Assembly (NCBI GenBank): GCA_910574455.1
Contig: CAJSYZ010000003.1
Location: 5,369,088 to 5,433,087 of the forward strand
Direction of reading: 5' to 3'
Source: Trichaptum fuscoviolaceum
Lineage: Eukaryota; Basidiomycota; Agaricomycetes; Hymenochaetales; Trichaptaceae
Length of the DNA: 64,000 nt
The first letter of the stretch is position 1; each line of letters starts with the position of its first letter. Both the position numbers and the translations under genes were made by a program. Below, piece by piece: positions 47,691-64,000 of this stretch. Under the pieces are notes generated by a model that worked only from the letters and a program-made list of their open reading frames with translations, was not told the origin of the DNA and did not search any database.

Positions 47691-47695
47691 AATAT

Positions 47696-49098
47696 TTCCA
47701 GTTGGGAAGGTGCAGCTGCGGCTTGCACCTGGGCTATGAAACTATACTATCTGTTCGTCACAGCAAGCATTCCTTCTACGGACAGGATGTTTCCAGTTGG
47801 GCAGGTGCAGCTGCGGCTTGCACCTGGGCTATGAAACTATACTATCTGTTCGTCACAGCAAGCATTCCTTCTACGGACAGGATGTTTCCAGTTGGGCAGG
47901 TGCAGCTGCGGCTTTGCACCTGGGCTATGAAACTATACTATCTGTTCGTTACAGCAAGCATTCCTTCTACGGACAGGATGTTTCCAGTTGGGCAGGTGCA
48001 GCTGCGGCTTGCACCTGGGCTATGAAACTATACTATCTGTTCGTTACAGCAAGCATTCCTTCTACGGACAGGATGTTTCCAGTTGGGCAGGTGCAGCTGC
48101 GGCTTGCACCTGGGCTATGAAACTATACTATCTGTTCGTTACAGCAAGCATTCCTTCTACGGACAGGATGTTTCCAGTTGGGCAGGTGCAGCTGCGGCTT
48201 GCACCTGGGCTATGAAACTATACTATCTGTTCGTCACAGCAAGCATTCCTTCTACGGACAGGATGTTTCCAGTTGGGCAGGTGCAGCTGCGGCTTGCACC
48301 TGGGCTATGAAACTATACTATCTGTTCGTTACAGCAAGCATTCCTTCTACGGACAGGATGTTTCCAGTTGGGCAGGTGCAGCTGCGGCTTGCACCTGGGC
48401 TATGAAACTATACTATCTGTTCGTTACAGCAAGCATTCCTTCTACGGACAGGATGTTTCCAGTTGGGCAGGTGCAGCTGCGGCTTGCACCTGGGCTATGA
48501 AACTATACTATCTGTTCGTCACAGCAAGCATTCCTTCTACGGACAGGATGTTTCCAGTTGGGCAGGTGCAGCTGCGGCTTGCACCTGGGCTATGAAACTA
48601 TACTATCTGTTCGTTACAGCAAGCATTCCTTCTACGGACAGGATGTTTCCAGTTGGGCAGGTGCAGCTGCGGCTTGCACCTGGGCTATGAAACTATACTA
48701 TCTGTTCGTTACAGCAAGCATTCCTTCTACGGACAGGATGTTTCCAGTTGGGCAGGTGCAGCTGCGGCTTGCACCTGGGCTATGAAACTATACTATCTGT
48801 TCGTTACAGCAAGCATTCCTTCTACGGACAGGATGTTTCCAGTTGGGCAGGTGCAGCTGCGGCTTGCACCTGGGCTATGAAACTATACTATCTGTTCGTC
48901 ACAGCAAGCATTCCTTCTACGGACAGGATGTTTCCAGTTGGGCAGGTGCAGCTGCGGCTTGCACCTGGGCTATGAAACTATACTATCTGTTCGTTACAGC
49001 AAGCATTCCTTCTACGGACAGGATGTTTCCAGTTGGGCAGGTGCAGCTGTGACTTGCACCTGGGCTATGAAACTATACTATCTACGACAGGATGTTTC
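47696..49098 (+). repeat. 95-bp minisatellite, about 14.5 near-identical units
   Basis: The unit starts GTTGGGCAGGTGCAGCTGCG and ends ACAGGATGTTTCCA. Spacing is 95 bases throughout except one 96-base unit (third). Each unit contains a hairpin, CAGGTGCA - 9 bases - TGCACCTG. Apart from the edge units, the main variable base is C or T in TTCGT(C/T)ACAGC. Overlapping 75-codon frames occur in every unit, but they are a by-product of the repeat: 95 is not a multiple of 3 and each frame ends in the next unit or two. Array homogeneity implies recent expansion or conversion. Confidence 0.95.
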
Positions 49099-57735: not shown

Positions 57736-57879
57736 ATAGACGAGCATATTCATGGCGATTTGTTATTTGAAATGTTCTCCTGATACAATAATATAATGGA
57801 GAGGATGTTTAATGTGTGATCCTTGATCAGAGGTTTGAAATCTCTTGGGCACTATGAGGGGAGAGGGGCCTACAGATTT

Positions 57880-58690
57880 CAACAAACAGGTTTAGCGCGC
57901 GGTAAATGGTAAATTGATCGATTTACCGCGGATACGAAGCATTACCGCGAGTACTCTCGCACAACTAAGTGCACAGCTCCATGACTGTCGTATGCAATTT
58001 CAGATTGTTTAAGTAATATTCCGAATTTATTGGAGTTATAAATGACAAAAAAGGCATACAGTTAGAAACAAGAAGTTGAAAGGGGGTGCGGTAATGTGTA
58101 TGGTAGGCGCGGTAGACTTTGTTACAGCGCGGTAATTGTCCGCGGTAGTTGCATGGTAACTGCATGATAGAGCGGTAAAGCTCCAAGAAATAGTGCGGAA
58201 ATCATGGTAGAATGAACGGAAGGCATGGTAAAATTAACGGTAATGAGCGGTAATGGCGCGGAAGTGCGCGGTAAATTCGACGGTAACAGCATGTTATTCT
58301 TGGATGTGCCTGAAATTGCGCGGTAAACTTCGAAAGTTCCATACCGTGTATATATGCTCTTCCAGTACACTTCCCACTAATTTCTTTCCATTTTTCAATC
58401 CAAGTCGCTATTGATTGTGTATAAATTGAGGACAATCTATATGTGAAGCTACAGCCACTACTGAGAATCCAACTAAGGACAAAATGCACTATTTACATGC
58501 TAAGATAATGTCTCACTAATGTTTTGTAATTTATCAGACATTTTTATTGCTCTATTTGGTGCTCTATTAACATCAATCTCTTTATGAAAACTGCACGGTG
58601 AAGTGGTACCTCCCGCGGTACTGCGCGGAACTGCGCGGAACTGTGCGGTACTGCGCGGTAGGACGGTAATCTGTATATTGAAATCTAGTA
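57880..58690. repeat. Stretch saturated with GCGGTA / TACCGC words
   Basis: At least a dozen copies of (C)GCGGTA(A) in about 800 bases, irregularly spaced, with close variants (ACGGTAA, TGGTAA, GCGGAA). The left edge has a palindrome CGCGGTAAAT (57898) / ATTTACCGCG (57921), and the right edge a cluster of CTGCGCGGAA/CTGCGCGGTA repeats (58618-58660). No gene. It may be a repeat element or a protein-binding-site array. Confidence 0.7.
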
Positions 58691-58784
58691 GCCCGCCCTC
58701 TACCCTGCTGGCCTGCAAGATATTTGCTGTCTGCATCCTACGTTGCCACTGTTTAGAGGGTCGAAGCCGTCCTTGTTGTCGTGG

Positions 58785-59196: not shown

Positions 59197-62100
59197 ATGG
59201 TTTTTTCATGCAGCTACCGTGACTGCAAGTTTAGCGTTCGAGTTCGGACTAAGCTCGACGAACATATTTCTAATAAGCATCCGGGACACCGGGAGCCGTG
59301 TATGGTGGCCGGTTGTTCTGCGTTGTTGAGAGACACTAAATCAGTGGAGACGCATGATTTAGTGGCGCATACGGAAAAATTCAAAGAAAAGTCGAAGGTA
59401 AGTAGATATAGCTTATCATTGCAATTTTGCACTGATTGTGTTAGGCATGGGGAAGCGGATTACCCTCATAAGACAAGACGACGGTTTGTTCTGGTGCCAA
59501 GTTGTCGGATGCAAGTATGCACGTGTGCATCCGCTGTTCGTTTTTGAACATATGGCGCAATGCAATAGGGTGTTTCTTGGAACGGGAATACCGCTAAACC
59601 CGACATCTGTGGAGGATCTTCCCAAAGACAAGCAAGTAGCAGAAGTGGATGGTTTAGGACGGATAGTAGCAGAACACGACTTCACCTTTGATTCGACGAT
59701 AACAGCTAGTGAGTTTGGCTTTCAGGAACTGGAATGGGAGCTGGTATCGGATAGTGGAAATAAGGAACGCTTGGATGGACATTCCGATAAAGAGAATTTC
59801 AGCGATGTCGCGAATGATTGTTCCGGCTGCGACAGTATAGAAGGATCCAATAAGGCGCATCTCCCTGATGTCGAGTTGATTCCTACTGGCCAGAGCACGG
59901 ACAAAATGGATGTCGATGTACATTGTGATGATGTCAGTATGTGTCTAAGTCTAGGTATGTTGAACGGCTACTATTGATGGCAAGTTCTAACAAATTGTCT
60001 AGGCAGTGATAAATACTGGAATGGGGATGAAAATGATGAAGTATGGGCAGCTGCAGCAGATGCCATAGATGTATCTTGTGCATTGGGTCGTTCTACTGAG
60101 TCACAGTCCAATTGTAAATCTGAGAAGGCGAAGGGAAAAGAAAAGGAAAATACAAAAGGTGCGAAGTTGGTTAAGTAGATGAAGTGCTTTAATGTTGCTA
60201 ACTGGGTTGTAGACAGCAAAGCCTTATTTTATGACGATGCTAATAATGGGGATGTGGACGTGCTCATGCGGGAAGTCGAGGATCAAGAATACGCAATGAT
60301 TCAAGATGCGATAGAGCAAACTAAAAAAGAAAAGGAAAGGTCTGAAAGGTTAGCATTCATGGAAGATCGTGGCGAAGGAACAAGTGGAAGCTCTAGTGAG
60401 TTATTGAGTAGTATTCTTGGTTTAAAACGATATTCTGATATATATGCTTATTATTTGATAAAGAGCTGCATGGCATCTCGAAGTCTGTAAACACGGGCAT
60501 ATCTGAAGACTTACGGGAAGGAGAGACCGTTGGATGTAGCAAAGAAACATCCATAGTGGACGGGGAGATGGTTACAGAAGATATTTCTGCAGAAACTATC
60601 TCCAAAACTGTCGATAGACAGCCATCAAGGATGGTTAACTTGGTGGACGATGTACGAAGGATGCAGACGATCGGGTCAAATCACTCTGGACGTGGACAAG
60701 CATTGGGACAAGTTCATACCGAATTGGATAACGGGGAGATTCCTACGAAGTCGAAGCAAAGAGGTTTGGACAACATCAATGTCGATTCCAATCAGTTCGC
60801 TGGTCATTATATCACCGTAGTGAATGATCACGACTTGAACGACATAGGTTGTGTTGTTCTGCCTCAACTGGGAGTCATTGTCTGTCAAACACATCGTATT
60901 GGACTCAATCCGGAGCCTACTGCGTTGTTGAATCATGTTAAAAATTGCAAGAAGACGACAACGGCTACGCTTGAATTTATCGAGAGCATTATAAATCGAT
61001 ATCAAATTCTACAGGTATCGAACGTCAAGATTCCGGTCGACTGTGACGAGATCGAGGCATTACACGAGCCTACGAGCGCTTTTCATTGTGTCTTTTGTGG
61101 CTATGTTGGTCAGTCTCAATCACGAATTAAAAGTCATATAGTGGAAGAACACAAAGGGTTGATGGGAAGCAAACCAACAAAGTCGTTTTACAAGATTTGC
61201 TACTCTCAACAGTTATTTGATTGTCGGGTACGGCCGCAATCGAGGTTTCGAGTCAGATGGGGTGGGCCTACTACGAGCACGAGAAATAACACAAGTCTCC
61301 TCGAGCTCTTCAATTCGTCGTACGTGGGTAATTCAACAACAGCAGCAAACGAGTTTATCAAGTCGCCGGATGAGAGGGCTATGAACGCTTTCCTGTCGCA
61401 AGTGCGATGGTTGGATATCATTTCCGGGTGCAGCCATGAACAGCTCTTACGATATATTGCACCTCCTCATGCCGATGAGAAGGGGTTCTCCGTGCTCGGC
61501 GTTATACAGGAATATTTCAAGAAAATGATCGCAAATCTTTCTACTATGACAAATGTAACATTGCGTGCCTTTCGAGGCAAAGATGGGTGCGTTTTTACTA
61601 TTCGTTTCCGTTAGATGTGCTAAATTCAAGTCATTCTCTTTGTTATATTAGGGATTCAAGTGATCCGTCTTTGCGCCCGCCTCAGAACGAATCAGCCTGG
61701 TCTCAATATGAGTCGATGATGTCGAAGCTGGCATTGTTTGCGATGCGAACATTAGAGGACCCCTACAACAAGTATTGTGTAGATATGACCAAGGAGCAAA
61801 GGGATGCCGTGAAGAATGTTTTGGACAAGGTGGAGAGCACGGTCAAGGAGAATATAAACGTCGACGATATGCAGAGATTGTTCTACAGCCTATTTTGCGG
61901 GGAACTGCTGGAAGGAGCAGATCGGAGGGCTAAGAGTGTCGTGGAAAGCTTTATCATCGTGAAATGCCTGAAACCTGACGAGATGTGCTTCATCGCGACG
62001 CGCTCAATCCCACCATTGATGTCTCGACTTATGTACATAATCAGGCTTGTCGTCGTGCCGAATGTTTGCAGAGAGCGAAGGAAAAGAATGTCTCGTCATT

Positions 62101-64000
62101 TAGGTGAGTAAATAGTATACCTGTTTATGCGTGTAACTGATCAAGCTTGGTCGTTTTTTAACAGTGAATCGAAGGATCACATTGATCTGGTTGACAAGAA
62201 TATGCCGTATCCGTTTAGTGTTGTTTGTCAGATCAAGCAACTTAGTTCGAGCATTACGCAGAAGACTCCAAGCGAGCCTAACATATATATGGCAATGGAC
62301 AAGAAGTCCTTCGAATATCAGGGGTATCCTTTCAAGATAGCGGATTTGAAAGAAAGTGGGCCTAAGTACATGGAGGCGCTCGAGACTTCTTACCGTAGAT
62401 GTCTTCGCGGACACAAATTTCCGGAATACGAGGCAACAGTGACTATGGTCCTTGATAAGGATAATAGTGATGTCACAATTCGCGACGACACTCGGGAAAG
62501 AAGAGTAGGCTACTCTCCGTTCACAGACGACAAAGGTCCACTGTCAATCTACGGAGACAATCTTCTAACAGCCTTTTTATTGGATGGACAAACTCGACGT
62601 CAGAATAAAGATGACGGTACTGAAGTGGACACCTCAATCCAGGATGGCGCTGTTGGTAGTGGCCGAATGACTATGGATAATGACTGCGGAAATGAATCAG
62701 ATTGCTCAAAAGCATCAGGAGATATGGGCAAAGTGGACGAGGAATCGCGTGACGTTGCCTTCTACAATCAAATAGTCCGAGTCACTCAGAATGGAATCAT
62801 GCAATGGGACTTTGTGGAGTTGTCGAAATGGTACTTGGATGCACTGGAGTTTCAAAAACGTCTTTTATTCGGGATACAGGCGTTTGGAGGTCCTAGTCGA
62901 GGTGCTGAATTGGTTGCGCTCTTGATACGGGTGTCGATTGAAGGCGGTATTGCTGTAGGATTTCATAACGGGTTGGTAATGATCATACAGCGATATTTGA
63001 AGACGAGGAACTTGACAGGTTCTGATGGGATGGCCATAAAGTCTTTCGGTCCAGGACTGGGTAGATACTTGATCTATCTCTTGACTCTGGTACGGCCGAC
63101 GGAGGTGGCGCTTTCGAACGTGTACTTTGGTTCTGATCAGAAGACCACAGCGAGGACCAACTATGAGAGGTTTTTATTTGTTGATCACGGGAAACTATTC
63201 AGTCCAGAGAAAGTGTCAAAGGTTATTAGGACACATAGCAAGATGTTTTTTGGCTGGGAGTTAGGTCCAGTTGATCTTCGACAGATCACAAAGTTTCTCT
63301 TGACGAATGTGCTTGAAGTGCGTGTTCCTGGTGAAGAAGACAGTATCGAGGACGAAGAACAGGCTGTGCACTATATAATGGGGCATAGAACACGTACTGC
63401 GAACAGACATTATGCAATTACCAGCAATTCTATTGCGTCAAACGAGCCGGAGAAGATTCGTCTGTCGGAGGCAGTTAGTTTGCATTGCAAGTGTTCTATG
63501 GTATCGAATCTTCAGCAATATTGCCGTCAAACCCAAAGACTGCGTCAAATAGTGATTACTGTGCCGGTGATATGAAACAGCTTTTAGCAGAGTTCTCTAA
63601 GGTTTGTTTGTTATCCTTTGGAAGATGATATTGAACTTACTGTTGCACAAATTGGTGATTAGAACATATTGGTGCGAATGGATCTTAAACTTAAAGATTC
63701 GATGAGGTCATATGTTACGGATTCTCTGGTTCCGGCAGTCAGAAGCATGGCCCTGGATGTTGCAATAGCTGGGAGGCTTCAAGACGGTCGAAGGACAGAT
63801 ATCGTGGGTGGGTCGAAAATGGTGGACCCAATTTTTCTACGCGCACTCTCCGACCTATTGGGACAAGACAATGCATCATTTCGTTCAGTCTTGCAAGCGG
63901 ATGCAGTTGTGCATGCGGTGTCTAGTCGAAAGCACACTCTAATCGTCATGCCTGTAGGTTCAGGGAAAACGTTGCCCATCCTAATGTCCGCGGTTATGAA
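59197..64000 (+). CDS. Zinc-finger / OrsD-like / tyrosine-recombinase-like / RecQ-like helicase fusion protein, 3' end outside the window
   Basis: Reconstructed exons: 59197-59397, 59456-59954, 60003-60158, 60213-60395, 60464-61586, 61652-62103, 62146 to about 63480-63515, then frame-shifted coding to 63601, and 63663-64000 onward. All junctions except the one near 63.5 kb keep the frame with GT...AG introns of 42-68 bases. The product starts with three fingers, followed by an acidic linker, an OrsD-like (DUF3505-type) zinc region, a long helical part, a tyrosine-recombinase catalytic region, and finally FRSVLQAD (Q-like motif) and VMPVGSGKT (Walker A) of a RecQ-like SF2 helicase. More than 1,350 residues lie in the window. 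OrsD domains joined to RecQ-like helicases are known in fungi; the recombinase reading is mine. A nuclear DNA-processing role or a mobile-element origin are both possible. The frame change near 63.5 kb may be a 38-base intron or real damage. Confidence 0.6.
59203..59574 (+). other. Three zinc fingers at the N-terminus of the fusion gene
   Basis: Finger 1 CSYRDC...HISNKH and finger 2 CMVAGC...HDLVAH are both C-x4-C-x12-H-x4-H. Finger 3 CQVVGC...HMAQC is C-x4-C-x12-H-x3-C and lies in the second exon. All ligands are intact. The same finger grammar occurs in the small gene at 18.4 kb. Confidence 0.7.
60840..61165 (+). other. OrsD-like (DUF3505-type) zinc-binding domain
   Basis: VVLPQLGVIVCQTHRIGLNP with LLNHVKNC, then after about 45 residues VDCDEIEALHEPTSAFHCVF and a C-x2-C-x12-H-x4-H finger (CVFC...HIVEEH). 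The layout (a first Cys/His segment followed by 'I..L' and a second C2H2 segment) is that of the OrsD domain, named after the orsellinic acid cluster protein OrsD and often found with fungal RecQ-like helicases and transposons. Confidence 0.6.
62860..63430 (+). other. Tyrosine-recombinase-like catalytic region
   Basis: First Arg box GGPSRGAELVALLI (Arg codon 62898-62900), second Arg box VDLRQITKFLL (Arg 63279-63281), then MGHRTRTANRHYAI with His at 63384-63386 and Tyr at 63411-63413. His-to-Tyr spacing is 9 codons, as in XerD and lambda Int, and the R1-to-R2 gap is 127 codons. The His of the usual HxxR is replaced by Val. A Lys in DHGKLFS (about 63180-63200) could be the beta-hairpin Lys. An acidic insert lies between the second Arg and the GH motif. 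Confidence 0.55.
63840..64000 (+). other. Start of a RecQ-like helicase core
   Basis: LLGQDNASFRSVLQADAVVH followed by SSRKHTLIVMPVGSGKTLPI corresponds to RecQ motif 0 (FRxxQ) and motif I (Walker A, here GSGKT preceded by VMPV). The DEAH and later motifs would be beyond the right edge. Confidence 0.75.

Follow-up and report, generated by a model that had tools for sequence, protein, structure and literature searches.

A RecQ-type telomere-linked-helicase-like gene of Trichaptum fuscoviolaceum with a probable tyrosine-recombinase domain

Does a single fungal protein join an enzyme that cuts and rejoins DNA to one that unwinds it? The question is raised by a gene at the right end of a 64,000-nucleotide stretch (the window; C3:5369088-5433087) of the Trichaptum fuscoviolaceum genome (59.1 Mb in 12 scaffolds, of which C1, C3, C5, C8, C9, C10 and C11 appear below), which we examined together with the next 20 kb. 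DNA to the right of the window is numbered as L009 (L009:1027 = 65027). The gene starts at 59197, and its last exon probably reaches to about L009:2793, some 2.8 kb to the right of the window. Its product has C2H2 fingers and then a weak OrsD-like region; a tyrosine-recombinase (YR) catalytic domain comes next, and a RecQ-type helicase last. Subtelomeric RecQ genes are known from several fungi (PMC7473861, PMC4522978, PMC10532341), and their function and spread are unsettled; one paper presents subtelomeric RecQ proteins as having no domain outside the helicase core. Our analysis reveals that the YR and RecQ domains are fused, with the same order in distant proteins and with conserved catalytic motifs. 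Judged from sequence, it is about an even call that this is a telomere-linked-helicase-like gene with a probably active tyrosine recombinase placed between the zinc-finger/OrsD part and the RecQ motor. Such a formerly unrecognised cut-and-rejoin domain might account in part for the spread or swapping of chromosome-end segments.

A recombinase domain ahead of the helicase

The YR catalytic residues occupy 62898..63413 on the forward strand, their codons beginning at 62898 (R), 63000 (K), 63279 (R), 63384 (H) and 63411 (Y). They were placed by alignment of the window protein with a divergent paralogue on C5 and two database proteins, P0001 and P0002, and the motifs recur in P0005 and P0006. Common to the first four sequences are G-x-x-x-R-x-x-E, Y-x-K-T, a second Arg, and a His followed nine residues later by Tyr. 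A protein search with the YR part alone (gene-model residues 1060-1320) retrieved P0001 (E 3.2e-10) and P0002 (E 8.6e-5), both of which have helicase domains. The profile search with YR plus helicase returned eight proteins, among them P0001, P0005 and P0006 with a YR domain; P0002 was outside those eight, and the other five, P0003, P0004, P0007, P0008 and P0009, gave no score on the YR model. The searched database apparently holds few fungal proteomes, which bears on how widespread the fusion is. At E 0.01, the C5 YR had no hit among 948 candidates, and no relative was confirmed among pattern matches in viral and prokaryotic contigs (for A2, 25 matches in viral and 32 in genome contigs; for P0005, five in viral contigs). 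On a YR model built without P0005 and P0006, P0005 scored 22.1 bits against a best of 9.4 among 5000 self-shuffles, and P0006 scored 9.4 bits against 6.0 among as many, its match covering the first half of the YR only.

The order of YR followed by helicase is found in six divergent proteins (window, C5, P0001, P0002, P0005 and P0006). In every one the YR starts about 350-420 residues before Walker A, and any two of the YRs are 13-28% identical. R, R, H and Y are present in all six and stand in register in five of them within one automatic alignment; the catalytic K is in register in five as well, being offset by one in P0006. In P0006, both Arg fall in register in one alignment, H and Y in another. 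Comparison of the six-member profile with XerC, XerD, FimB, FimE, lambda Int, Cre, P2 Int and HP1 Int gave a score of 33.9 (P 6.3e-4), which no control reached, neither among the 300 column permutations (maximum 18.8) nor among the 200 block shuffles (maximum 23.3). Leave-one-out profiles scored 25.6-38.9, all above the best control, and the reversed profile scored 14.4. When the window sequence was left out, the profile aligned over 144 columns, beginning at the first Arg and ending at the Tyr (P 1.1e-4, HH-suite probability 56.2%). When segments of 250 residues were slid along four members, those with the stretch from the second Arg to the Tyr scored 21.1-21.6, against at most 17.1 elsewhere.

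The paralogue on C5 (C5:7813762-7818451) is modelled as a 1517-aa OrsD-YR-RecQ protein with three introns. Its YR and Walker A lie within a single 699-aa open frame with no intron between them, so the fusion is shown without any splice model. The C11 relative matches it at 77% over 394 residues, reaches the very end of its scaffold and stops just before the catalytic Tyr. OrsD passes the Pfam cut-off of 26.6 bits in both (34.4 bits in C5, 34.7 in C11), while the window copy stays below it. A protein-guided alignment of C5 and C11 covered 477 codons of one exon. Over the 177 YR codons, amino-acid identity is 80%, pS is 0.79 (saturated) and pN is 0.11, giving a pN/pS of 0.144 (bootstrap 0.092-0.206); for the 300 codons ahead of the YR it is 0.234 (0.186-0.292). 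An earlier nucleotide alignment, now superseded, agrees (645 codons, dN/dS 0.103 overall, one C11 stop). The YR of this pair is under selection against amino-acid change.

Reading frame and parts of the gene

Near-identical copies of the gene are present on C3 (the window), C8 and C9, and a partial copy on C1; some of these may be haplotypes. In its own letters the C8 copy has nine exons with GT-AG introns and a single spliced frame of 1938 codons running from the fingers through the helicase, with several possible joins to the last exon. The preliminary description had proposed a YR and a RecQ helicase in one polypeptide, and this is borne out by the C8 frame, the C5 frame and the distant relatives. 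It had also ended the YR exon at 63515, which has to be moved, as the exon of the C8 copy reaches the equivalent of 63601 and is followed by one 61-base intron and then by the helicase exon. The window copy shows three one-base length differences to both the C8 and the C9 copies, reflecting either mutation or sequencing error. Because of them, the best splice sites do not yield one open frame in the window copy as assembled, and its YR exon can be joined to the helicase exon through weak or debatable splice sites only. The C9 copy has two stops within the helicase match, and the C1 copy (C1:5220961-5225517) is interrupted by an N gap ahead of the YR.

All parts lie on the forward strand. Exon 1 (59197..59397) encodes two C2H2 fingers, recognised from the sequence, splice sites and finger spacing. 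Exon 2 (59445..59954), which follows a GT-AG intron and is open in the C8 copy, encodes an acidic linker and a further finger; of the three fingers reported before, two are thus of C2H2 type, and the third is C2HC-like and was assigned by eye. Exons 3 (60003..60158) and 4 (60213..60395) are linkers. Exon 5 (60464..61586) holds the OrsD-like region (60862..61155; Pfam OrsD E 0.0012, 19.7 bits), and is followed by exon 6 (61652..62103), which is open in the C8 copy. The pre-YR region, the YR catalytic domain and a linker make up exon 7 (62165..63601), whose 505-aa frame is open in the C8 copy and breaks near the exon end in the window copy. Exon 8 (63663..64000, continuing to L009:1027) begins the RecQ helicase and includes Walker A, recognised from its sequence at 63951..63971. 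The order given in the preliminary description (fingers, OrsD-like domain, R...R...GH...Y, RecQ start, Walker A) is confirmed, with a weak OrsD match.

The start of the helicase gives a weak Pfam match inside the window. Past the edge, where a DEAH box and C-terminal RecQ motifs had been anticipated, we found DEAH, QECGRGGRDG and a Helicase_C match of 56.5 bits. Walker A, the DEAH box and a RecQ-type core are all present, and a profile built with P0001 and P0002 best matches RECQ5 structures (E 1.7e-40). The Pfam scan took in the gene except exons 3 and 4 and L009:1076-2043. Just downstream of the gene is a 223-aa open frame on the reverse strand (L009:3007-3678), which may encode a 2OG-oxygenase-like protein.

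Duplicated surroundings and competing readings

The copies of the gene are part of larger duplications. Counted from the window start, 42-72 kb match C8:1-30000 at 99.5-99.8%, 46-82 kb match C9 at 99.4-99.6%, and the compared parts of 1-13 and 22-32 kb match the C5 end at 98.7-99.1%. A 1.5-kb probe at 31 kb has whole-length matches on C3, C9 and C10, and partial ones at 98-100% on C1, C5, C8 and C11; C11 need not belong to the duplicated block, because part of the probe is a dispersed repeat. The gene copies on C3, C8 and C9 sit within common blocks of about 30 kb or more, without gene-sized borders; no element termini or target duplications were found around them, nor any borders at which to look for the short terminal direct repeats of a Crypton. 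The 7.5 kb to the left of the window are all N and the window begins right after them, which barred an empty-site comparison between C3 and C5. A telomere array (C3:5169263-5169394) lies inside the scaffold and is followed by an N gap; for these reasons, the C3 tail that holds the window may be misplaced.

Other features of these blocks were noted in passing. A tandem array of units of about 95 bp (47692-49083) varies in length between the duplicated blocks. At 57862-58695, upstream of the gene, lies a CGGTAA-rich repeat. Judged by eye, its ends are apparently inverted (CTACAGATTTCAA / CTACTAGATTTCAA); the repeat is related to many places in the genome and looks like a non-autonomous DNA transposon. 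It had been considered as an array of binding sites (57.9-58.7 kb), an idea that was dropped since it belongs to a repeat dispersed across many places. On C5, three (TTAGGG)2 tracts (C5:7818395-7818917) are located at and just past the 3' end of the gene, the first within its last codons, which counts in favour of a telomere-linked-helicase-like gene. Near them is a 1146-aa frame (L037:4203-7643, reverse strand; C5:7819203-7822643) that has no Pfam match and whose 5' part is common to the window start; it resembles a Penelope-type reverse transcriptase.

Several observations weigh against reading the gene as an active recombinase of chromosome ends, and some of them concern its location. The C8 and C11 copies are at scaffold ends and the C5 gene is 35 kb from one, but the C1 and C3 copies are about 320 kb and 107 kb from an end, the C9 copy is interior, and the copies may partly be haplotypes. 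No telomere array is present in the first 30 kb of C8 or the last 10 kb of C5, and the C3 contig goes on where both C5 and C8 have come to an end. These two scaffold ends, and that of C11, may therefore be assembly breaks, and a position at a scaffold end is weak evidence for a subtelomere. Others concern the domain itself. No YR match was obtained in Pfam (parts scanned), in NCBIfam (five proteins) or among PDB sequences; the six-member profile reaches an HH-suite probability of 27.9%, as opposed to 56.2% without the window; the scores of the four-member segments are below the best six-member block shuffle; and an AlphaFold model built from three sequences was unusable (mean pLDDT 32.6). In P0006 the register varies: one alignment fills the H and Y columns with another His and with Phe, the other with NHSAATSKSDY. 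The missing family match, the modest HH-suite probability, the unusable model and this varying register would speak for chance motifs in an unrelated helical region. We regard such a misassignment as very improbable, given the spaced motifs in six proteins of such low identity, the failure of all 500 permuted profiles to reach the observed score, the six leave-one-out scores above every control and the confinement of the higher segment scores to the stretch ending at the Tyr. H-x-x-R is without its usual His in the window and C5; this His is clear only in P0006, whose K is offset. It is thus conceivable, though unlikely, that the fold has lost its catalysis or stands idle, serving now in DNA binding only, as has been proposed for domesticated Crypton-derived proteins such as Gcr1 and Cbf2 (PMC3212892). 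According to the same text, however, Cbf2 and Gcr1 reportedly do not preserve their catalytic site, unlike here, where R, R, H and Y are kept in all six members and the YR is under purifying selection.

The setting bears on two further alternatives. Tyrosine recombinases drive both Cryptons and Starships, and near-identical copies on several scaffolds would suit the self-moving transposase gene of a discrete element of either kind that captured a RecQ helicase. The preliminary description had suggested such machinery as one possibility. The genome surroundings are indeed duplicated, but a discrete Crypton-like element is unsupported, none of the termini or target duplications it named having been found. 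The shared blocks have no borders of gene size, and GCR1_C and DUF3435 are unmatched in the parts scanned; the N gap leaves room for a large element, and we consider a discrete element rather unlikely. A division of YR and RecQ between two genes, as the broken frame of the window copy might imply, is hardly credible in view of the open frame across both in C8, the intronless stretch between YR and Walker A in C5 and the same order in P0001, P0002, P0005 and P0006.

If the gene does encode an active recombinase-helicase, the roles of its parts follow from the known chemistry of their families. The fingers and OrsD might hold repeated DNA, perhaps that of chromosome ends, which RecQ would open or branch-migrate, and the YR would cut and rejoin strands through a covalent tyrosine bond. 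Such strand exchange, be it selfish or of use to the host, might help the duplicated segments around the gene to swap or spread. It is plausible that the gene acts at subtelomeres, although its location is weak evidence for this, and a conserved strand-exchange domain in subtelomeric RecQ proteins would offer a mechanism testable by one Tyr-to-Phe change and a tie to site-specific recombinases.

Relation to known systems

By description, the closest likeness is to the fungal telomere-linked helicases, such as UTASa and UTASb of Ustilago maydis, which PMC10532341 describes as RecQ-like, multicopy and chromosome-end-associated, with OrsD in UTASb. Near-identical copies are likewise present here (C3, C8, C9 and partly C1), and so is OrsD, in C5 and C11. 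The word recombinase does not occur in that paper. Some of these genes are induced in telomerase-negative U. maydis (PMC10532341), and in yeast that lacks a telomere-replication gene, Y' elements with a helicase are amplified (PMC4522978). Strand exchange by a domain of the same protein would be in keeping with both observations. The subtelomeric RecQ helicases of Agaricus bisporus var. burnettii are similar in their many near-identical copies, some of them truncated. Among the full-text matches listed (titles and starts of abstracts, with most subscription journals and bioRxiv outside), none indicated that a RecQ or OrsD protein contains a tyrosine recombinase.

Cryptons (CryptonF) share a fungal tyrosine recombinase and have domesticated relatives (PMC3212892). 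They differ by the GCR1_C domain of CryptonF proteins, absent among the Pfam matches of the gene parts scanned, and the word helicase is nowhere in that paper. For DUF3435, the Starship captain domain, the YR exon gave no Pfam match; a genome search found none, but neither did its control. XerC/XerD, FimB/FimE, Cre and the phage integrases match the profile with the Arg, Lys, second Arg, GH and Tyr in register, yet these are free-standing recombinases with 17-18% identity in the profile alignments.

P0005 resembles the window protein in having the YR motifs followed by a helicase, and differs in carrying an N-terminal Sir1 ORC-binding domain (residues 6-125, 48.2 bits, cut-off 24) instead of OrsD. 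The yeast Y' helicases also carry a Sir1 domain. Its place ahead of the YR and the helicase in P0005 suggests that this protein is a yeast helicase with the same hidden YR domain. It is possible, if doubtful, that the fungal telomere-linked helicases, and with them Sir1-bearing proteins such as P0005, are fundamentally recombinase-helicases, each a single enzyme that cuts, rejoins and unwinds DNA at chromosome ends. Were this so, the recombinase-helicase would be the missing engine of the spread of subtelomeric elements, and perhaps of the maintenance of chromosome ends without telomerase.

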